Below are positions 9,781 through 20,690 of a stretch of DNA of 34,770 nt, piece after piece (the first letter of the stretch is position 1; the number at the start of each line of letters is the position of its first letter). The notes beneath the pieces were generated by a model. That model was not told where the DNA came from. It did not search any database and saw only the letters and a list, made by a program, of their open reading frames with translations. The DNA is from Bacteroidota bacterium (GTDB lineage Bacteria > Bacteroidota > Ignavibacteria > SZUA-365): the NCBI GenBank assembly GCA_016928515.1, contig JAFGKR010000187.1, forward strand, positions 1-34,770. Reading direction: 5' to 3'. The translations under genes were made by a program, and so were the position numbers.

Positions 9781-9805
9781 GGAACAAAGCTCCTTAAAGG
9801 ACGTC
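9781..9805 (+). promoter_or_regulatory. Candidate ECF-type promoter ahead of the sigma-factor gene
   Basis: GGAAC at 9781-9785 is separated by exactly 16 bases from CGTC at 9802-9805. This matches the general ECF sigma pattern of an AAC-containing -35 element and a CGTC/CGTA -10 element with a 16-17 base spacer. It lies 17 bases before the sigma gene ATG (9823), so transcription would start near 9812 with a very short leader. It suggests autoregulation by the encoded sigma factor. Only one instance was recognised in the window, so the assignment rests on motif shape and position. Confidence 0.45.
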
Positions 9806-9822
9806 TATAGGTCAGTGTTGTG

Positions 9823-10437
9823 ATGACGCCGGAAGGTATGGCAGACACCCTAGCAGGACAATACGTTCCCCCTCGCGCCACGGAACCCGGCGATGATATT
9901 CTCATCACCCGCTTCCAGGCCGGAGATGACGATGCCTTTCGTCTGCTGCTTGAACGCTATACGGAACGGATACGCAATCTGGTGTTCAGTATTTTTCATG
10001 ACACGGATCTGATCGATGACATCACCCAGGATGTATTCATCAAAACCTATCGTGCACTGCCGCACTTCCGTTTCGACGCGTCATTCTACACATGGCTGTA
10101 TCGCATCACCGTGAACCATTGCCGTGACATCATGCGGAAACAGAAACTGCGAAAGATGCTGTCCCTGCACTCACTGATGGAAACCCGCGATCGGGAACTG
10201 ACGGTAAAAACCTCCGTGCAACCAGCGGATACGGATACGCAGGAATGGATACAGAAAGGACTGCAGAAACTCCCGGAGAAATATCGTCTCCCGGTGATTC
10301 TCAAGGATATGGAAGGATGTTCCTACGAGGAAATGGCGGATATCATGCAATGTGAACTTGGAACGGTTAAATCACGACTCTCACGCGGGCGCTCCATGCT
10401 CCGCGATTGGCTGCGACCAATGCTGGAGGGATACTGA
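9823..10437 (+). CDS. ECF-subfamily RNA polymerase sigma factor (204 aa)
   Basis: A two-domain sigma-70 family protein. Region 2 spans about residues 30-100 (AFRLLLERYTERIRNLVF, DDITQDVFIKTYRAL, FYTWLYRITVNHCRD) and region 4 about 145-200 (LPEKYRLPVILKDMEGCSYE, EMADIMQCELGTVKSRLSRG, a helix-turn-helix). It directs RNA polymerase to a specific promoter set and is normally held by a membrane anti-sigma factor, here apparently the next gene one base downstream. Start choice is uncertain: GTG 9820, ATG 9823 and ATG 9838 are in frame and none has an ideally spaced ribosome site; GGAAGG lies too close to 9838. A candidate self-recognised promoter lies at 9781-9805. Confidence 0.93.
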   Translation: MTPEGMADTLAGQYVPPRATEPGDDILITRFQAGDDDAFRLLLERYTERIRNLVFSIFHDTDLIDDITQDVFIKTYRALPHFRFDASFYTWLYRITVNHCRDIMRKQKLRKMLSLHSLMETRDRELTVKTSVQPADTDTQEWIQKGLQKLPEKYRLPVILKDMEGCSYEEMADIMQCELGTVKSRLSRGRSMLRDWLRPMLEGY

Positions 10438-10438
10438 C

Positions 10439-12040
10439 ATGCTCTCCCGGCACGCGACCCGCGTCTCTCAGCAATTATCCCTTTACTTGGACGACCGTCT
10501 CGAGGGAATCGAACGGCTGGAAATCGAACGTCGTATTGCGAACGATGCTGCCGTTCGAGAGGAATACCAGCAGCTGAAAGCCATGCAGGCGATGCTGGCC
10601 TCCCGTGATGCACTCCCCGAAAACCCGTTCCTCGCTGAACGCATCATGAATCGCCTCCACGAGCATACCGGGGAGCGGGACGATGCGTCCCCGGTTTCAC
10701 ACCGCTTCCTTCCCGTCACTGCAGGACTCTTCGCTGTCCTGCTTGCCGCCGTCGCCCTTTTCGCGTGGTTGCAGAGGGACGACATTGTGCACTACGTGGA
10801 AGAAACCGGGGCCCAGATGCAACACGCCTACGAGGAAACCATTCTCAAAGGCTGGATCATGCCCCTGTTTCAACGCACCGATCGGGATCAGGTTCTCCAT
10901 TTCGCCATGTTCGGGACACTTCCGCTGGACAGGGAGGACGGCACCATCCTTCGGATCGACGAAAACGCCACTCAGGGCTATCGCGTCGAACTCGCCCGCG
11001 AACCGGAGCTGGCACGACCACATGCGACCATCGATGAGCTGTACTCGGAAATTGAACCGACCGAAATGCAGCGCAAAGTGTTCGATTCCCTCTTCCTCTA
11101 CGCCCAGAGACAGATCGAGTCCTCCGTACTCATGAACGATGAGAAGGAACTTGCAATCGATCCCGCGATCAGCACATATCAGAAAGTCATTCTCTCCGGT
11201 ATCGCGGCAAGTCTTGAACCGGACCAGCAGGAGCGCTTTGAACGCTTCCTGTCACAGCGTCATACACCGTACACCTTCGTCTCCCGCATTTCCCGTCAGA
11301 CACGACCGGCGAGTACGCAGCGTCCTGACCGTGTCATCGAGCATTTTCGGACCGTACCCCTGCCGGAGGAATTCGTCGTGTTTACACGCGACAGCATCTC
11401 GCGTACGCGGCTCCATCTGGATATGGACAGTTTGCGCCGCCTGATGAAAATGGTGGAAGACCGGATGCCTCGCATTCAGGTAGAGGTCAAGGAACTCGTC
11501 CGTATCCAGATCAGGGGCAATGACAATGTCATGCGGGAAATGGAAATCGATCTTCTGAATGTCCTTAACGAAATCGCCATCCTCCGGCGTGAGGAAACGC
11601 CCCGAACCCGAAGTGTGACCCGTTCGTCCCGCCCTCAACGCATGCCTCGTGAAACGGATGTGCGGATAGATATTTCACCGGACTCGGAGATGCATATCAC
11701 CGTGGGAATCGATTCCGTCATCAATCGGGCACTTCAGCCGCTCGAACGTATGGGGATCGATTTCCCGGCTGACTCCATGGGCATGCGGGATCGTTTCGAT
11801 CATGATTGGCGGCGTTTCGTTCCGGAGGAGCGGCTACGGACACTTGACAGCCTGCTGCGCCGACACATTCCGGGAGATTCCGGCCGCTGGCGACGACATC
11901 CTGATCCTGCTCCGCCGGAGTCGCGCTTCGAACATCCCGAGCGCCTTCCCGAAGGTCTGATGATTCCGCATCCGATGCGTCCGCGACTTCTGGATCCAGC
12001 ATCCACGCCTTTGAAGAAGGATACCGTATACGACATATAA
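10439..12040 (+). CDS. Putative membrane anti-sigma factor with large extracytoplasmic domain (533 aa)
   Basis: The start at 10439 is supported by GGAGGG eight bases upstream and lies just after the sigma gene stop. Residues 1-75 form a helical cytoplasmic segment of anti-sigma type (QQLSLYLDDRLEGIERLEIE, then ERRIANDAAVREEYQQLKAM), but it has no HxxxCxxC zinc motif. A single membrane helix covers about residues 90-112 (LPVTAGLFAVLLAAVALFAW). The remaining 420 residues should be periplasmic; they are charged, rich in arginine and proline towards the C-terminus, and contain no fold I recognise. Position, topology and N-terminal pattern support an anti-sigma role (inference); the outer domain is far longer than in typical anti-sigma factors and could be the stress sensor. 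Confidence 0.72.
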   Translation: MLSRHATRVSQQLSLYLDDRLEGIERLEIERRIANDAAVREEYQQLKAMQAMLASRDALPENPFLAERIMNRLHEHTGERDDASPVSHRFLPVTAGLFAVLLAAVALFAWLQRDDIVHYVEETGAQMQHAYEETILKGWIMPLFQRTDRDQVLHFAMFGTLPLDREDGTILRIDENATQGYRVELAREPELARPHATIDELYSEIEPTEMQRKVFDSLFLYAQRQIESSVLMNDEKELAIDPAISTYQKVILSGIAASLEPDQQERFERFLSQRHTPYTFVSRISRQTRPASTQRPDRVIEHFRTVPLPEEFVVFTRDSISRTRLHLDMDSLRRLMKMVEDRMPRIQVEVKELVRIQIRGNDNVMREMEIDLLNVLNEIAILRREETPRTRSVTRSSRPQRMPRETDVRIDISPDSEMHITVGIDSVINRALQPLERMGIDFPADSMGMRDRFDHDWRRFVPEERLRTLDSLLRRHIPGDSGRWRRHPDPAPPESRFEHPERLPEGLMIPHPMRPRLLDPASTPLKKDTVYDI

Positions 12041-12085: not shown

Positions 12086-12114
12086 TTGTCACTCATTCTG
12101 TTCGTCTGTATACT
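12086..12114 (+). promoter_or_regulatory. Sigma-70-type promoter for the secreted TldD-like pair
   Basis: TTGTCA (12086-12091) and TATACT (12109-12114) are separated by exactly 17 bases, each one mismatch from the sigma-70 consensus. The transcript would start near 12121, leaving a leader of about 34 bases with a strong GAAGGAGG site before the ATG at 12155. This means the TldD-like genes can be expressed independently of the upstream sigma/anti-sigma genes. Confidence 0.6.
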
Positions 12115-12154: not shown

Positions 12155-13894
12155 ATGTTTCCGCAAAACCATTCAAAAACCGTTTTGTCGTTCTTTGCAT
12201 TCCTGCTGTGTTTCATGGGACAACCACTCTGTGCCCAGCAGGACCGACTGATCGATCTCATGTCACGCGAACTCGATCGCGAAATGCAGGTGCTGAAGGC
12301 ACAGGATCCGCCCGCATATTTTCTGTCGTATCGCATCGATGAATCCGTGACCAGTGCAGTCAGCGCTTCCCTCGGCGCCATCAAAAACAGTCATGACGAT
12401 CATCGCCGGCTCCTCACCGTTCAGCTCCGTGTCGGCGATTATACCATGGACAACACGCGGGAAATTCGCGGCGACGATGCTTTCGACCTGAATTTCCCTC
12501 AGTTCACCTTCATTCCGATCGATGAGGACGAAGACGCCATCCGTCTCGTTATCTGGAACGCGACGAACCAGCAATACCGCAAAGCGGCGAAGAAATATCA
12601 GGAAGTGAAAGCCAACACCGCAGTCAAGGTCGCGGCAGAGGATCAATCACCAGACTTTGCCCGGGATGTGACTCCGGTACAGCACATTGATCCCCTGTTG
12701 AAAACCGCGGATCTGCTCCCCGACCGATCGATCTGGGAGAAGAAATTGAAACGATATTCCGCCGGCTTCCTCGAATCCGAACACATCTTTGAAGGGGATG
12801 CGTCATTGCGATTCTCCGCGGAACGCCGGCGCATCGTCACCAGCGAGGGGAGCAGAATCGCAGAGAATCGCGTCGCTGTGCGGCTGTTGCTGCATGCTAC
12901 GATCAAATGCGATGACGGTATGGAACTTCCACTGCATCGCAGCTACTTTGCATTCGATTTTTCCGGTCTTCCATCGGACGAAGAGATCATGGCCGACGTG
13001 AAGGAAATGGTCGCCACGCTCCGTGCAATGCGGGAAGCGCCGGTCATCGAACCGTACACCGGCCCCGCGTTGCTGTCGGGCGAAGCCGCGGGTGTTTTCT
13101 TCCACGAAATTTTCGGTCATCGCGTCGAGGGACACCGGCAGAAACTGGAAAGTGAGGGTCAGACATTCAAGAAAAAGGAAGGACAATCCATTCTCCCCTC
13201 ACATATGAGTGTCGTCTTCGATCCCTCGCTGAAGTCATTCGAAGGTCAGGATCTCAACGGATACTATCGCTTTGATGATGAGGGAGTAAAGGGTCAGAAA
13301 GTCACGGTCGTCGAAAACGGGGTACTCCGTGATTTCATCATGAACCGGACCCCATTCGAAAACCACCCGACATCGAACGGACACGGCCGTGCGCAGGCAG
13401 GATATCAGCCCGTTGCACGACAGTCCAATCTCATCGTCACAACGACGCAGCCACGAAGCGACGCGGAATTGCGCGAACTCCTTCTGGAGGAATGCCGTCG
13501 CCAGGGAAAGGAATTTGGCCTGTTGTTCAAGGATGTACAGGGCGGTTTCACGATGACCGGACGCTGGCAACCGAACTCCTTCAATGTCACACCGACGGAA
13601 GTCCACCGTATCTACACTGACGGTCGCCCAGACGAGCTTGTGCGCGGCGTCGATCTCGTGGGAACTCCGCTCGTCATGTTCTCCAATATCACAGAGGCAG
13701 GCGCCCGACCCGCCGTCTTCACCGGCACCTGCGGCGCGGAATCCGGTGGGGTTCCCGTAACAGCCATATCCCCCGCGCTTCTTGTTTCCCAGATCGAGGT
13801 GCAGAAAAAGAGCAAGTCCCAGGAACGGGCACCGATTCTTCCACGCCCGGATCGGGATCGGGATACACCGCAACCGTCGAAACGGAGATTCTAG
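12155..13894 (+). CDS. Secreted TldD/PmbA-family zinc metalloprotease (579 aa)
   Basis: A TldD-type peptidase carrying an N-terminal signal peptide (cleavage near LCAQ, residue 28), unlike the cytoplasmic enterobacterial TldD. The zinc motif HEIFGH is intact (H317, E318, H322), followed by RVEGHRQ, and the family's third ligand, a cysteine, is present at C526 in GTCGAESGG. TldD with its partner TldE degrades or trims unfolded peptides, for example microcin and CcdA substrates. This copy should act in the periplasm or outside (inference). The start at 12155 follows GAAGGAGG; an in-frame ATG at 12086 lies inside the promoter and is rejected. The C-terminus has a charged Arg/Asp/Pro tail after the last family motif. 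The next gene, 32 bases on, encodes the degenerate partner. Confidence 0.9.
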   Translation: MFPQNHSKTVLSFFAFLLCFMGQPLCAQQDRLIDLMSRELDREMQVLKAQDPPAYFLSYRIDESVTSAVSASLGAIKNSHDDHRRLLTVQLRVGDYTMDNTREIRGDDAFDLNFPQFTFIPIDEDEDAIRLVIWNATNQQYRKAAKKYQEVKANTAVKVAAEDQSPDFARDVTPVQHIDPLLKTADLLPDRSIWEKKLKRYSAGFLESEHIFEGDASLRFSAERRRIVTSEGSRIAENRVAVRLLLHATIKCDDGMELPLHRSYFAFDFSGLPSDEEIMADVKEMVATLRAMREAPVIEPYTGPALLSGEAAGVFFHEIFGHRVEGHRQKLESEGQTFKKKEGQSILPSHMSVVFDPSLKSFEGQDLNGYYRFDDEGVKGQKVTVVENGVLRDFIMNRTPFENHPTSNGHGRAQAGYQPVARQSNLIVTTTQPRSDAELRELLLEECRRQGKEFGLLFKDVQGGFTMTGRWQPNSFNVTPTEVHRIYTDGRPDELVRGVDLVGTPLVMFSNITEAGARPAVFTGTCGAESGGVPVTAISPALLVSQIEVQKKSKSQERAPILPRPDRDRDTPQPSKRRF

Positions 13895-13926
13895 TGGCGC
13901 CAACGACACCCAAGGAGAATACGCAT

Positions 13927-15777
13927 ATGCAGAAAATATCCATCCCCATTCTCATTCTCATCCTCGGCTTTCATGTGATGTTCGATTGCACCGCGCAGCA
14001 GCAGGAGTCGATCGTTCTGCAAGCCATGAAGGATGAGCTGCAGCGAAACATCGATCGCCTGTCGCTGGAAGACATGAGCACACCATTTTTCATCAGCTAC
14101 CAGGTAAAGGATACGAGAAGCATCTCCATTCAGTCTACCGCAGGGGCCATCACACATTTCGATTCGAGCCACAGTCGCAGGCAGAACGTTCGCGTGCTCG
14201 TCGGAGATTACACTCAGACGCAGGAGCATTTCGTCGGCTCCGACCTCGCCTTCTCGATGGACGCCTCATCCCAATTGCTTTCTCTCGAAGACGATTACGA
14301 TGCCATTCGCAGGGAACTGTGGCTGAGTACGGATCGGGCATACAAAAAGGCGACGGAAACTCTGGAAAAGAAACGTGCCGCATTGCGCCAGCAGCAAATG
14401 CCGGAGGAATACAAGGATGTTGCGGATTTCTCTGCGGCGGAAACCATTGAACATATCGAACCTGTCAAGCACGTCACATGTGACATACCCGCATGGAAAA
14501 AGCGTGTCCGCGAATTGTCGGCGATTCTGAAGGAATACCCGCAGCTGTACACCTCGACTCTCACGTTCAGCTTTGATCAGTCCACGGTCTACTTCGTCAA
14601 CAGTGAAGGAACTGTAACCGTTACCCCCCGGATGAGTACTCGCATCCTCGCCACCGCGGCAACGCAGGCGGAAGATGGGGAGCCCTTGATGGACTTCATC
14701 CTGTACGAAGTGCTTACCCCGGCGGATCTGCCCGATATGGAACAGCTTGCGGCATCCATCCATCACATGGCAAAAACACTCACGGAGAAACGTTCCGCAG
14801 TTCCGATGGACGAATCATACACCGGGCCCGTTCTCTTCGAGGACCAGGCTGTTCCGGAGCTCTTCACCCGACTGTATCTCGGAAGCGAGGGACTGATCGC
14901 ATCACGCATGCCGATCATGGAGGGACCACTCGCCATGATCGGTGCGCAACTGGGGAAAAGAAATCTGGGTGACAAAATAGGAAAGCGCATCCTTCCGAAT
15001 GAAATCAGCATCGCAAGCACACCTTTCGTCCATGAATTCCAGGGCACGGAACTGACAGGAACATTCTCGGTCGATGCGGAGGGAGTGCAGCCCGCGGAGA
15101 AGTTGCTCTTGATCGACAAGGGGAATGCTGCCGCACTTCTTTCCGACAGAGTCCCGACCCCGCATTCGCAGGCATCAACCGGTCATCGCTGCCTGGGCCT
15201 CGGGAGTTTCGATGGGGACGGAATCTGTCCCGGCGTGCTTGATATCACCGTATCGGATGGTCCAAACGCCTACGAAATGAAACAGCAGCTTCTCGATCTG
15301 GCGGCAGAGGAAGGATTGGAGTTTGCGTATATTGTTCGCCGCATCCGCCCTGACGCCGTCACCGGACCGTCGGTGAGTGACGACCTCAGCACAACCATCA
15401 GCATGTTCGGGATGAGCGCCGGTGGCGGAGCAACACCCCTTGGAGATCCTGTGCGGATCTATCGAGTCAACGTCGCAGACGGCACGGAAACTCCCGTGCG
15501 ATCCGCCGAAGTGCTCAAACCGGGTGCAAGCGCACTGCGCAAGCTGACTGCCAGCATTGACCGGGAAGCGTGGAACTGCACCATGGAGGGTGACAGCCCG
15601 ATTCCCGGTTTCGGAGCTTTTATCAGCATCGGGCGTTCAGTCTCCGGCGCATCCGGCGGGATTCCCGTCTCCATCATTGCCCCGAAGGCGATCATCATAA
15701 GCGACATGGAGGTACGCAAGGAAAAGCGGGCGATCACGCCGAAGCCGCCCATCGTGGAGTCACCACTCTACAAGTGA
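13927..15777 (+). CDS. Secreted TldE/PmbA-like partner lacking zinc ligands (616 aa)
   Basis: Homologous along its length to the preceding TldD-like protein (compare FFISYQVKDTRS with YFLSYRIDESVT, and SYTGPVLFEDQAVPELF with PYTGPALLSGEAAGVFF). The zinc helix is replaced (ELFTRLYLGSEG where the active copy has HEIFGHRVEGH) and no cysteine occurs at the third-ligand position (SVSGASGG). This mirrors the TldD/TldE pair, in which TldE is catalytically silent but needed for the heterodimer. A signal peptide is present (MQKISIPILILILGF..., cleavage near CTAQ). The start at 13927 follows AAGGAGA; a GTG at 13894 overlaps the upstream stop region and lacks that site. The reading frame is fully open, so it is not a pseudogene. 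Confidence 0.85.
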   Translation: MQKISIPILILILGFHVMFDCTAQQQESIVLQAMKDELQRNIDRLSLEDMSTPFFISYQVKDTRSISIQSTAGAITHFDSSHSRRQNVRVLVGDYTQTQEHFVGSDLAFSMDASSQLLSLEDDYDAIRRELWLSTDRAYKKATETLEKKRAALRQQQMPEEYKDVADFSAAETIEHIEPVKHVTCDIPAWKKRVRELSAILKEYPQLYTSTLTFSFDQSTVYFVNSEGTVTVTPRMSTRILATAATQAEDGEPLMDFILYEVLTPADLPDMEQLAASIHHMAKTLTEKRSAVPMDESYTGPVLFEDQAVPELFTRLYLGSEGLIASRMPIMEGPLAMIGAQLGKRNLGDKIGKRILPNEISIASTPFVHEFQGTELTGTFSVDAEGVQPAEKLLLIDKGNAAALLSDRVPTPHSQASTGHRCLGLGSFDGDGICPGVLDITVSDGPNAYEMKQQLLDLAAEEGLEFAYIVRRIRPDAVTGPSVSDDLSTTISMFGMSAGGGATPLGDPVRIYRVNVADGTETPVRSAEVLKPGASALRKLTASIDREAWNCTMEGDSPIPGFGAFISIGRSVSGASGGIPVSIIAPKAIIISDMEVRKEKRAITPKPPIVESPLYK

Positions 15778-15881: not shown

Positions 15882-17327
15882 ATGAAATCACGGCGCAGAT
15901 CACTCCTTTCAATCCTCTCAACAGCCGTGGCCGGTATCCTGCTTCTATCGGCCTGTGACAGTACGAATCCGGATATCCCACCTGGCGCACCACGAATCCT
16001 CTCCGGTACGGACAGCGTCTCGGTTGATGAGAGGGTCACTGTTACTGTCGTCGCGGAGGATCCTCGTGGACGTCCGCTGACCTACGAAGTCGACTGGGGG
16101 GATGCACGTGACATGCAGACTATCCCGGGTATCGAAAGCGGGCTCTTCCACGAACTGACCTGGCAGTATTTCGATCCAGGTTCCTATGAGATGCGATGCC
16201 GCGTCATCGATGCCGACGGACGAATCTCCGCCTGGTCCGCCACGTTTTCCATTGTCGTCACGGGCGAGGCCGTATTCGCACGCGGCGACTGGTGGATGTT
16301 CATGCGCGATGCTCAGCATAGCGGGCACAGTCGTTTCCAGGGGCCGGGTACGCCGGTTCTCAAATGGCGCCACGCGGCTGCCTCCCCCATCCGTTCCAGC
16401 GCGGTCTTCGATGCGGCAGGAACTGCGTATTTCGGCAGCAACAATTTTCTCCTGCAGGCAGTCTATGCGGATGGACGCTACAAATGGCAGTACCGGACTG
16501 GAAACGCGCGTATCCCGAACACACCCGCACTTTCGCAGGACGGCGCATTGCAGTTCGGCAGCAGCAGCGCAAATATCTATCGCGTGAACCGATACGGATT
16601 GAAGGAATGGAACGTATCCGTGAACGCTCCGATTCTCTCTTCCAGCGCGGTTGTCGACAGGGACGGGAACATGTACATCGGCAGCGAGGATTGCTCACTC
16701 TATTGCGTGTCGGGAAGTGGTAGCATCCGATGGAGCGTGCTGACCAATGGTGCCGTTTCCGGGAGCCCCGCACTCTCGAGGGATGAACAATATGTCTATG
16801 TCGGAAGCCAGGACAGACTGCTCTATGCAGTGAGTAGAAACGGAGATGTCGCATGGACGGCAGTAACTGGCGCGCCGATCACCGGCAGTCCGAGCGTCGG
16901 TCCCGACGAAACGATATATATCGGCAGTGAGGACGGCTTCCTTTCGGCATACAATCCAGATGGCAGCCTGTACTGGAAACGCGATCTACATGCCGCGATA
17001 CGGACGACACCCGCCGTGACGCGGGAGGGGATCATCCATACGGTAACCATCGAAGGGAAACTCTTTGCCCTCGACGGTTCCGGCACAGTTTTATGGGACG
17101 TCATCGTTGCTCCCTCAGGCGGAGAGGCGAGTCCGATCGTGGATGTCATCGGACGCATTTACATCGGTGGACCGGACGGAAGGCTGACGGCGATTTCTTC
17201 CAGCGGACGCATCATCTGGCGATTCGATACTGCATGGCCCATTCAATCGACCGCATCCATAGGTGAGGACGGCAGCATCGCCTTCGGCAACGACGGAGGC
17301 GAATTTTTCGTCCTGCGCGAGCGTTGA
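15882..17327 (+). CDS. Lipoprotein with PKD/Ig-like domain and PQQ-type beta-propeller repeats (481 aa)
   Basis: A lipobox (LLLSAC, lipidated C25) follows basic MKSRRR. Residues about 35-125 resemble a PKD/Ig-like domain (VTVVAEDPRGRPLTYEVDWG, PGSYEMRCRVIDADG). Residues about 145-481 hold at least seven repeats of about 40 residues with the pattern GS.D..LYA....G...W (examples IGSEDCSLYCVSGSGSIRW, VGSQDRLLYAVSRNGDVAW, IGSEDGFLSAYNPDGSLYW), a PQQ-like or BamB-like propeller without recognised catalytic residues. It is expected on the outer or inner membrane as a binding or assembly scaffold. The start at 15882 is preferred over ATG 15774, which would bury the signal peptide. It ends 21 bases from the convergent CHAT gene. 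Confidence 0.85.
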   Translation: MKSRRRSLLSILSTAVAGILLLSACDSTNPDIPPGAPRILSGTDSVSVDERVTVTVVAEDPRGRPLTYEVDWGDARDMQTIPGIESGLFHELTWQYFDPGSYEMRCRVIDADGRISAWSATFSIVVTGEAVFARGDWWMFMRDAQHSGHSRFQGPGTPVLKWRHAAASPIRSSAVFDAAGTAYFGSNNFLLQAVYADGRYKWQYRTGNARIPNTPALSQDGALQFGSSSANIYRVNRYGLKEWNVSVNAPILSSSAVVDRDGNMYIGSEDCSLYCVSGSGSIRWSVLTNGAVSGSPALSRDEQYVYVGSQDRLLYAVSRNGDVAWTAVTGAPITGSPSVGPDETIYIGSEDGFLSAYNPDGSLYWKRDLHAAIRTTPAVTREGIIHTVTIEGKLFALDGSGTVLWDVIVAPSGGEASPIVDVIGRIYIGGPDGRLTAISSSGRIIWRFDTAWPIQSTASIGEDGSIAFGNDGGEFFVLRER

Positions 17328-17348: not shown

Positions 17349-20300
17349 TTACCGTTCCACCATGATGAACCCTGCCCAGAAAAAGGGATGTGCATACTCC
17401 CTGCGCATTCTCTTCCGTGCCTCTCGAAATGCCCTGTAGGCGTCATTGCTCTCAAGCAGTCCCTCGTAAAACCACTGCATCATCATCGCGGTGGGTTCAT
17501 CCGCCACTTTCCACAGTGTCATCAGCAGGCACTCCGCCCCTGCGACCTGAAACGCCCGCTGCAAACCGAAAATGCCTTCGCCGTTGGTAATATCCCCAAG
17601 TCCTGTTTCACAGGCGGAGAGTGTCACGAGTTCCGTCCCTGTCAAATCCAGTCGACTGATTTCCAGCGCACTCAGGATACCGTCATCACCTCGCGTCGGG
17701 GGAGATTTTCCGGTCCACACTTCGTTCACTCCACTGAATACCAGTCCTGCTCGGAGCATGGGATTATCTTCAACACGAAGCTGTTGCGCTCCCCCGCGGG
17801 TTACGATTTTCTGTCTCTCGTGGGTATCACCGATCCGGGGAACCGGGAAAAAAAATCCGTGTGTTGCGATATGAAGGATTCGCGGACTCGACCCGCTGAG
17901 GGCTTTGACTTTCTCTTCGCGTGCCTGTGGGCCGACAAGTGTAACGTGCGTGATGTTTCGTGCAGAACAGATTTCCGAAATCCGTTCGACTTCCTTCATC
18001 GTTCCCGGCAGCGGTCCCCACGCCCCCCCACGCGTAATATCACCGCCCGGGACCTCATCCGTATCCTCATCTGAACTCAGTTCTCCGAACTGCGGTGCTC
18101 CCAGAAGTACGACGCTTTGTGGTGAACGGTACCGTGACGGTTTGAAGCGGATATTGCGTGAGAGCAGATCGCGTGATCCTGTGAGGAAATGGAGTTCATA
18201 CCGATCATCGAGGTAGGTTGTAGATGTCCCCTCTCCGGTAACCAGGGCATGAAATGAAAGGCGATGGAGAACACCGTCGGGAACCAGGTAACAGGTTCGT
18301 ACATTTTTCAGCTTCTCTTCCAGTGGCTGCCAGACGAGAGAATACAGCTCTGCGGATAGTTGTGGATCGGAAACATAGTTCTCTTTCTGCGGATGCATCG
18401 TGCCATCGAGATACGGACGGAGTTGGTCCTCGCGTGCAAGCGGCACGATGACGGGGTCGTCGGTCCTGGTGAGGACTACCGCAGAATAGAGAATGGTATC
18501 CGTACTCGTCCGATAGTCGTAGTGAAAGGGATGCACGACGAATTCGACGAGGGCTTCATCCGCCTCGAGCTGTCTGCGCACGTCCATCCAGTCGGCGTCC
18601 TGTCGTCTGCGAAGTTTATCATACTCACGGTCGAGCTTCCGCAGGGTGGCGTCGAGCGAATCCGCACTGCGTTGAATGCGGCGTCGTTCCTCCATGAGAA
18701 GAGCATCGTGCGGTCTGCCGGCGAGAGCCGCATCCTGCTCACGTAATGTCGTCAGGCGACCGTTCAGTTCGTCCGCAAAGCGATTTTTCGATCCCTCCGC
18801 GCTGCGGCGTGCCGTTTCATTCGCCACAGCCCCCTTGAAACGCAGCATTGCCTGCAACAGCAATATCGGGATCTCCCTGTCATGATCAGCATACTGAACG
18901 CAGAACTGCCCTATCAGATCGAGGTTGGGTTTCAGGACGGTATTCATGTACTCGAGTTGATGGCGCTCACTGTCGAAGCCGAATGATTGTTTCATTGCGA
19001 TATCGAGGTGATGCATCAACTCCTGCAGGTGCAGAAGTGCCTTGCCGATCTCTTGTTGCTGGGCGTACATCTGTGCGACAATGCGCTCTGCCGCGATACG
19101 TTCCGTATGACCGTCATCGAACATCTCGCGACGAATTTCCAGTGATTCCTCCAATTGTGCGCGTCCTTCTGCGGAGAATCCCGATTCCACGTTCATCCGG
19201 CCGAGGTTCCCCAGAGCGACCGCCAGCTCTACCCCATCAGGCTGGTTCAGTGCGCGAAACTCCTCAACGGCCTCCGCGAAATGCAGTCGGGCTTCCCCGC
19301 TGTGTCCCTGATCGCGATACAGCGTGCCAAGGTTATTGTACTGCCGCGCAATTTCCGGATGTGGACGCTCATACAACCGTTTCACCATTTCGAGTACGGA
19401 GACATAGAGTCGCTCCGCTTCTTCGAGACGCCATTGCTGTGCGTAAAGGGAGGCGAGATTATTCAGCACGATCGCGCGTTGCTGATGATCACCGGGGTAC
19501 AGCGAATCGAGCATGGCGCGCGCAGCTTCGAAATGTTCTTCCGCATCAGAGAACCGGCCGCGGATCATGTGGAAATATCCCATGTTGTTCAAGGACAGCA
19601 GCACATCGGCATGTGGCCCGGGATGCAGTCTTCGTCGCATTTCAAGGGATTCCCGGTACAGGGGCTCTGCTTCCGCATCCATACCGCGTGACTGGAAGAA
19701 ACTGGCGAGGTTGTTCATTGCGGTTGCGACCGCCGGATGGTCACCTGGATACCGTCGTCGCGCCCGCTCAAGAACATCGACCATCAATCGCTCGGCTTCA
19801 GCAAGTCGGCCGAGACGCGTATAGAGATACGCGAGATTGTTTTTCAGCGTGATGACCTCATCGTGATCCGAATCACCATAGGTGGAGGACGCAATGCGGT
19901 TCGCCTCCAGGTACAGTTGCTCCGCATCCTGAAAGTGCCCGCTGGATGTCAGGAAATAGGCGAAGTTGACCATCGGGGAAATCAGTTCGGGAGCGCCGTC
20001 CGGATACAGCCGACGGTACATGGCCAGACTCTCGGCATAATACGATTCCGCCTGACGCGTCTTCCCGAGCCCTTCATAGAAGACGGCTAGATTGTTGTAA
20101 CCGATGGCCACCTCCACATGATCCCCTCCATAGATCCGCTGCTTCATCTCCATGGCTTCAAGAAATAGCGGTTCTGCGTGATCCGGCTTCCCCGCACGGT
20201 GCCAGTAGTATGCCATGTTGTTCATTGTCTGGGCAAGGGAGGGATGATCACCTGGATGCATGCGCCGGCGCATAGCGAGCGCTTCCGCATACAGTGGTCT

Positions 20301-20690
20301 GGCTGCCTCCGTGTTGCCCTCCGCATCGAGCAGGAAGGCACAATTCGAAAACGCATCAGCGACATTGGCATGATCGCCTCCCTGAATCCCGTCCTGTGCG
20401 AACGCGAGGGCACGGCGTGCGATGTCGGTCGTGCTGTCAGACCCGGCTTCGTATGCCGAAAGAAGTTCCATCAGCAGAAGCTGATAACGCACTGAATCTT
20501 CCACTGAACGCCACTGCCCCCGGGAGACATCGGGATAATCCCCGACGTCCCCGCTCTCCTGCGCCCGTGCACTCTGCCATGATGCAATGTGCCATATGGT
20601 GGAGAGGCAAAGACCGATGGTCAGAAGAAACCGGAACAGCGCAGGCATAGGGTGCTGCTCGGGAAACAGTCCGGGAAAGACAGGAGACAC
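17349..20690 (-). CDS. Secreted TPR-repeat CHAT-domain (caspase-like) protein (1113 aa)
   Basis: Residues about 75-560 contain roughly eleven kinesin-light-chain-type TPR repeats of 42 residues (e.g. PSLAQTMNNMAYYWHRAGK). A helical linker follows at 560-720, then a C-terminal CHAT domain, a caspase-fold cysteine peptidase. The catalytic pair is intact: H944 in HIATHGFF and C1027 in LSACETGLG; GEGIFGLQRAF and the terminal HPFFWAGFIMV are also typical. A hydrophobic segment ending near SARAQ predicts export, which is unusual for a putative protease of this fold. Two starts are possible: GTG 20690 with GGAGG eight bases upstream (used here) and ATG 20648, which gives a neater signal peptide but no clear ribosome site. 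Target unknown. The gene lies 17 bases downstream of the small HicB-like gene on the same strand. Confidence 0.87.
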   Translation of the reverse strand: MSPVFPGLFPEQHPMPALFRFLLTIGLCLSTIWHIASWQSARAQESGDVGDYPDVSRGQWRSVEDSVRYQLLLMELLSAYEAGSDSTTDIARRALAFAQDGIQGGDHANVADAFSNCAFLLDAEGNTEAARPLYAEALAMRRRMHPGDHPSLAQTMNNMAYYWHRAGKPDHAEPLFLEAMEMKQRIYGGDHVEVAIGYNNLAVFYEGLGKTRQAESYYAESLAMYRRLYPDGAPELISPMVNFAYFLTSSGHFQDAEQLYLEANRIASSTYGDSDHDEVITLKNNLAYLYTRLGRLAEAERLMVDVLERARRRYPGDHPAVATAMNNLASFFQSRGMDAEAEPLYRESLEMRRRLHPGPHADVLLSLNNMGYFHMIRGRFSDAEEHFEAARAMLDSLYPGDHQQRAIVLNNLASLYAQQWRLEEAERLYVSVLEMVKRLYERPHPEIARQYNNLGTLYRDQGHSGEARLHFAEAVEEFRALNQPDGVELAVALGNLGRMNVESGFSAEGRAQLEESLEIRREMFDDGHTERIAAERIVAQMYAQQQEIGKALLHLQELMHHLDIAMKQSFGFDSERHQLEYMNTVLKPNLDLIGQFCVQYADHDREIPILLLQAMLRFKGAVANETARRSAEGSKNRFADELNGRLTTLREQDAALAGRPHDALLMEERRRIQRSADSLDATLRKLDREYDKLRRRQDADWMDVRRQLEADEALVEFVVHPFHYDYRTSTDTILYSAVVLTRTDDPVIVPLAREDQLRPYLDGTMHPQKENYVSDPQLSAELYSLVWQPLEEKLKNVRTCYLVPDGVLHRLSFHALVTGEGTSTTYLDDRYELHFLTGSRDLLSRNIRFKPSRYRSPQSVVLLGAPQFGELSSDEDTDEVPGGDITRGGAWGPLPGTMKEVERISEICSARNITHVTLVGPQAREEKVKALSGSSPRILHIATHGFFFPVPRIGDTHERQKIVTRGGAQQLRVEDNPMLRAGLVFSGVNEVWTGKSPPTRGDDGILSALEISRLDLTGTELVTLSACETGLGDITNGEGIFGLQRAFQVAGAECLLMTLWKVADEPTAMMMQWFYEGLLESNDAYRAFREARKRMRREYAHPFFWAGFIMVER

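Follow-up and report, generated by a model that had tools for sequence, protein, structure and literature searches.

About 60% of bacterial genomes encode homologues of TldD/TldE (PMC5810440). In Escherichia coli, the pair (TldE is also called PmbA; MEROPS M103; PDB 5NJ5–5NJF) forms a chamber with a metal site, into which peptides are threaded with tolerance for sequence, and it matures microcin B17; proteases of this kind often lie outside the gene cluster (PMC5810440; PMC10885120). The third metal ligand of E. coli TldD is Cys454, its clamp is tethered by K456 with E270/D272, and the E263A variant was crystallised with a bound hexapeptide (PMC5810440). The pair has hitherto been described mainly as intracellular, and no description of an exported TldD was found in the open-licence literature. 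Here we describe a counterpart that appears to be exported, a variant of TldD/TldE designated TldDx/TldEx, which is encoded in a 34,770-nucleotide stretch of DNA (the window; positions 1 to 34,770, forward strand, of contig JAFGKR010000187.1, assembly GCA_016928515.1) from a Bacteroidota bacterium of the class Ignavibacteria.

The predicted zinc peptidase subunit TldDx (positions 12155–13894, + strand; 579 aa, with an ATG start after AAGGAGG) and its silent partner TldEx (13927–15777, + strand; 616 aa), which has a predicted TldD fold without the metal ligands, are encoded on the same strand, with 32 bases between the two reading frames. The TldD C-terminal domain (PF19289) is recognised in TldDx with an E-value of 6.4e-27 (94.6 bits, against a cut-off of 22) and in TldEx with an E-value of 9.9e-5 (22.0 bits, exactly the cut-off). 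The N-terminal domain PF01523 gave no match in TldDx at E ≤ 0.01, and a search of the same genome with this profile returned the other TldD locus only. TldDx also falls far below the NCBIfam equivalog cut-offs for TldD (NF008006, 42.5 of 513 bits; NF040952, 77 of 635 bits). With phmmer, TldDx matched structures of E. coli TldD (5nj5, 1e-14), and the TldEx query matched no TldD-family structure.

Both proteins begin with a lysine-containing segment followed by a hydrophobic core and a site of the signal peptidase I type. The predicted Sec signal peptides comprise residues 1–27 of TldDx (12155–12235, + strand; cleavage between LCA and QQ) and residues 1–23 of TldEx (13927–13995, + strand; cleavage between CTA and QQ). 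These calls come from a heuristic hydrophobicity rule (best 12-mer on the Kyte–Doolittle scale, threshold 1.8, with the start picked 15–60 residues ahead of the mature part), by which TldDx scores 2.68 and TldEx 2.82; 13 E. coli proteins taken as cytoplasmic score at most 1.79 by the same rule. A signal-like N-terminus is found in 70 of 76 TldDx, 65 of 66 TldEx, and all 11 fused proteins (see below). The six TldDx that fail comprise four that score below 1.8 (L073, L086, L079, and L091) and two in which a start is missing (L043, which lies at the edge of a contig, and L047); the single failing TldEx, L040, likewise lacks a start. The N-termini of both families thus appear to be of the Sec type, which sets them apart from the cytoplasmic TldD/TldE.

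As in E. coli, the metal site is confined to one of the two proteins. TldDx carries HEIFGH (residues 317–322; 13103–13120, + strand), with two metal ligands and the catalytic Glu, which is kept in 86/86 relatives, and C526 (13730–13732, + strand), which by alignment is the predicted third ligand, equivalent to Cys454 of E. coli TldD. The two His, the Glu, the Cys, the Gly, and the following Ala are invariant in all 86 aligned TldDx. TldEx has none of the three metal ligands and also lacks the catalytic Glu: TRLYLG (residues 314–319; 14866–14883, + strand) stands at the site of the lost HExxxH, no Cys occupies the position equivalent to C526, and HExxxH occurs in none of 58 aligned TldEx. At the clamp, the tether Glu is kept in 86/86 TldDx, the position equivalent to K456 is Ala in 86/86, and the D272 equivalent is His327, invariant across 11 aligned rows. 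A sequence-only reading of this locus had proposed an exported TldD/TldE-like pair with signal peptides on both proteins, HEIFGH plus C526 in one, and all three zinc ligands lost from the other; the reading frames and domains, the hydrophobicity rule with its conservation across relatives, and the alignment agree with it on each of these counts.

The survey of genomes that this reading had suggested shows the family to be broader than supposed. Strong TldDx were found in 12 of 41 relatives (the source genome included), and a scan of genome contigs yielded at least 575 relatives, of which the best 80 were used for counts. Records among these 80 are named Bacteroidota, Ignavibacteria, Kapabacteria, KSB1, Gemmatimonadota, Acidobacteria, Gammaproteobacteria, Latescibacterota, and Pontiellaceae; the exported-pair family is thus widespread across records of several phyla. 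Carriage of TldDx by viruses or plasmids was looked for, and none was found. The 89 loci examined (12 from the relatives, and 77 of the 80 after removal of the duplicates L029–L031) comprise 65 with TldEx adjoining TldDx, 11 fusions, 11 with TldDx alone, one with TldEx alone, and one in which TldDx is broken into three frames. The lone TldEx is the unlinked partner of one of the 11 solitary TldDx, and whole-genome searches for the other ten found TldEx elsewhere in nine; across the 88 TldDx-bearing loci, the partner therefore adjoins in 65, is fused in 11, and is encoded at a separate genomic site in 10. Of the 296 genomes in a phylum sample, 30 contain TldDx (E < 1e-70), and 28 of these also encode TldEx (19 adjoining, 9 unlinked); the two without TldEx are G392 and G017, and the TldDx of G017 is frame-broken. 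Judged by these gene patterns, the partnership appears near-obligate, and conserved signals, adjacency, fusion, and co-occurrence when unlinked together lend strong support to an exported pair of one active and one silent subunit.

In L015, a genome from the family to which the window genome belongs, a single 1168-aa frame comprises a signal peptide, TldDx, a short linker, and TldEx minus its signal. The other ten fusions are mostly in Bacteroidales records, and each of the 11 fused frames has one N-terminal signal peptide and none at the junction, an architecture which indicates that both mature parts act together in one compartment. On a tree of 86 TldDx (this and the other trees are from ‘quick’ searches), the fused state needs four changes, and starred branches force four, so that fusion has been gained or lost repeatedly. 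Apparent fusions among the open frames of the genome searches (e.g., G167 and G045) were not counted; L042, which is identical with contig G167:C132, contains two frames rather than one, and L192 showed just a TldDx frame of 571 aa.

The active/silent split had been read as the same as that of TldD/TldE; the split itself stands, and a shared origin does not. In a tree of 97 rows (30 TldDx, 30 TldEx, 14 TldD and 10 TldE of cytoplasmic type, and 7 + 6 of Tat type), a starred branch separates every TldDx and TldEx from cytoplasmic TldD/TldE, with clade support of 94 for TldDx and 99 for TldEx. Forcing all silent subunits into one clade costs 156 log-likelihood units and is rejected by the approximately unbiased (AU) test (p = 1.2e-5), which, with the tree, rules out TldEx as an orthologue of TldE and points to an independent loss of the active site. 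Long branches would pull the silent subunits together, and the tree shows the opposite; whatever the root, the split arose at least twice. In addition, 95 alignment columns are common to TldDx and TldEx and are filled by at most 15% of cytoplasmic or Tat-type rows.

Models predict the TldD fold for both proteins. An AlphaFold model of the natural L015 fusion has a mean predicted local distance difference test (pLDDT) score of 87 and a predicted template modelling (pTM) score of 0.85, and the TldDx half of this model aligns with E. coli TldD (5nj5_C) at Z 35.2 and 3.2 Å over 446 positions, residues 4–480; the N-terminal domain therefore seems to be present, although missed by PF01523. TldEx of the window, modelled alone (pLDDT 88), gives Z 27.7 to TldD and 23.1 to TldE (5nj9_B). 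Structure was dropped as evidence on the origin of TldEx, because VIA-align places TldD first and Foldseek places TldE first.

Compared with E. coli TldD/TldE, the window pair shares the fold, HExxxH and Cys in one subunit, a silent second subunit, and a one-to-one partnership, but is predicted to be exported, has about 20% identity, and has an N-terminal domain that PF01523 does not recognise; its family further differs in the replacement of K456 by Ala, a silent subunit that appears to be separately derived, and natural fusions. Archaeal TldD (NF040952)/TldE (6J6A) shares the C-terminal catalytic domain (1.2e-21) and the fold, but TldDx reaches only 77 bits against the archaeal TldD cut-off of 635; to our knowledge, no signal peptide is known for the archaeal proteins. 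TldD homologues with a twin-arginine translocation (Tat)-like N-terminus (RRxFL; e.g., L116/L118) also belong to the TldD fold family and carry a non-cytoplasmic signal, but this signal is Tat-like rather than Sec-like, PF01523 is detected, and they group with cytoplasmic TldD/TldE in the tree. The source genome (92.6% complete) encodes four TldD-family proteins, namely the exported pair and a second pair on C103/C41 (L027, L028) that belongs to this Tat type; the N-terminus of such pairs (also L128, L130, L116, and L118) reads RRRTFLQ. The Tat-type TldD member has an intact HESIGH in Kapabacteria/Ignavibacteriae records and no HExxxH in the genus and family of the window, so that TldDx is the only family member found in its genome with an intact metal site.

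One gut Bacteroidales lineage has dispensed with catalysis. The fused protein was matched in 57 of 99 genomes searched from one gut Bacteroidales family, and 32 of the sequences found were aligned. Six of these are intact; in a further 11, both His and the Cys remain, with Asn, His, or Ser in place of the catalytic Glu; seven have lost ligands; and eight are without the catalytic domain. The silent half is kept in all 32. The dead forms (L224–L250) constitute one side of a branch with support 100*, in a tree that includes two long rows, and a Pfam scan of one 853-aa dead form gave no match. The ratio of nonsynonymous to synonymous substitution rates (dN/dS) is 0.12–0.29 in six dead pairs, two of which have dS > 1.3, compared with 0.085 in an intact pair (dS was saturated between the window and L016); the dead forms are thus held under purifying selection. 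By analogy with the E263A structure of E. coli TldD, the forms that lack Glu and keep the ligands could act as peptide traps.

Taken together, TldDx/TldEx is probably a self-compartmentalised zinc peptidase that acts on unfolded peptides in the periplasm. The signal-like N-termini, metal-site conservation, partnership, fusion, and separate silent-subunit origin are read from sequence, and the fold from models; from these we infer the localisation, the physical complex, proteolysis, and the substrate class. Sec would export both proteins and signal peptidase I would cleave them, after which mature TldDx and TldEx would assemble as a periplasmic heterodimer of TldD-fold subunits, with TldDx supplying the metal site (H317, E318, H322, and C526) and TldEx closing the chamber as the silent partner. 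Short unfolded peptides would thread into this chamber as an extended strand and be cut with little sequence preference, as by cytoplasmic TldD/E, in a role of general periplasmic peptide trimming or disposal rather than the processing of one clustered precursor. The chemistry of enzymes studied as intracellular would then operate in the periplasm, a compartment with little-studied peptide turnover. Several observations weigh on the other side. Apart from the pair, no neighbour family occurs in more than 6 of 101 clustered loci, so that nothing points to a substrate; of 40 genomes that encode the pair, 22 also contain TldD-type proteins with PF01523; and the dead fused clade, retained without catalysis, means that cleavage cannot be the sole function of the architecture. 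Furthermore, the TldD family reportedly also contains N-deacetylases, according to the title of a 2022 review by Vobruba that is listed among the references of PMC10885120.

The sequence-only reading had set the pair within envelope processing controlled by a sigma factor, and the neighbours that it named are present as described: an extracytoplasmic function (ECF) sigma factor (9820–10437, + strand); an anti-sigma-like protein predicted to have a single transmembrane helix (10439–12040, + strand; NF052375, 1.2e-9, under its cut-off); and a beta-propeller lipoprotein (15882–17327, + strand; lipobox LSAC read from sequence). The sigma factor would then induce the anti-sigma factor, TldDx, TldEx, and the propeller, and the peptidase would clear misfolded envelope peptides or target the anti-sigma factor. 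In favour, the window shares its five co-directional genes with three congeners, and an ECF-type promoter, GGAACA...CGTCTA (9781–9807, + strand; chance 0.05 per window), precedes the sigma gene in 4/4 genus members. The source genome has a further such site (GGAACAAA...CGTCTA) ~39 bases ahead of a gene for an exported PDZ protein (L263:749–1950, C375), beside another ECF sigma frame; membership of this gene in the same regulon is possible, with the motif count at control level (4 genome-wide, and 4 for the reversed control). However, the window, L016, L017, and L018 are the only loci examined in which the sigma, anti-sigma, and propeller genes surround the pair; the link is missing from all other lineages examined, among them the family member whose pair is fused (L015); gene order is syntenic in the genus generally. 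TldDx also has what appears to be its own sigma-70-like promoter, TTGTCA-17-TATACT (12086–12114, + strand), a consensus match of 10/12 bases that is the best such site of the region and has a counterpart, TTGACA-17-TATACT, in L016. Because the link is confined to the genus and TldDx has this promoter, the case for envelope control is weak, even with the promoter at the sigma gene conserved; shared ECF control of the pair is possible, and is not indicated for the family. We regard such a stress module as unlikely.

Somewhat less likely still is an exported amidohydrolase or N-deacetylase, in which the same fold and metal site would process an acylated molecule of the envelope instead of peptides. 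The reported N-deacetylases and the uniform Ala at the K456 position, which implies that the cleft may differ, speak for it; the fully retained HExxxH and Cys, the strong match of the fold to the peptidase TldD, and the lack of any gene family that recurs widely beside the pair speak against it. It is very improbable that the pair is a protease dedicated to maturing an exported ribosomal peptide (RiPP): the microcin B17 precedent and the frequent location of such proteases away from the cluster would allow it, but the intergenic gaps of the cluster measure about 120 bases at most and offer little space for a precursor gene, neighbours are not conserved, and the spread of the family is wide and housekeeping-like. 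A precursor within the cluster was thus rejected, in line with the earlier failure to recognise one in the window. The poorest prospect is a complex that mainly binds peptide or metal without cutting, of which the gut dead forms, with their several kinds of loss and constrained sequences, would be the purest examples, since the full catalytic set in the window lineage and in 86/86 TldDx would be unneeded under selection for binding alone.

A further, tentative reading is a second, periplasmic TldD/E in several phyla, in which the heterodimer was invented independently, repeatedly fused, and stripped of its protease in one gut Bacteroidales lineage, with selection still maintaining the silent half; at heart, such a complex might be a peptide-capturing chamber in which cutting is optional. 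For structural studies, the natural fusions offer the pair as a single chain; the second independent loss of the active site, together with the naturally dead forms, provides a handle on what the silent half does.

Two minor observations concern the surroundings of the pair. The ECF-type −10 element ends 12 bases ahead of the GTG with which the sigma gene starts, and three congeners show a similar spacing; the sigma transcript may therefore be nearly leaderless. Convergent to the cluster is a gene for a large TPR-CHAT protein (17349–20690, − strand).

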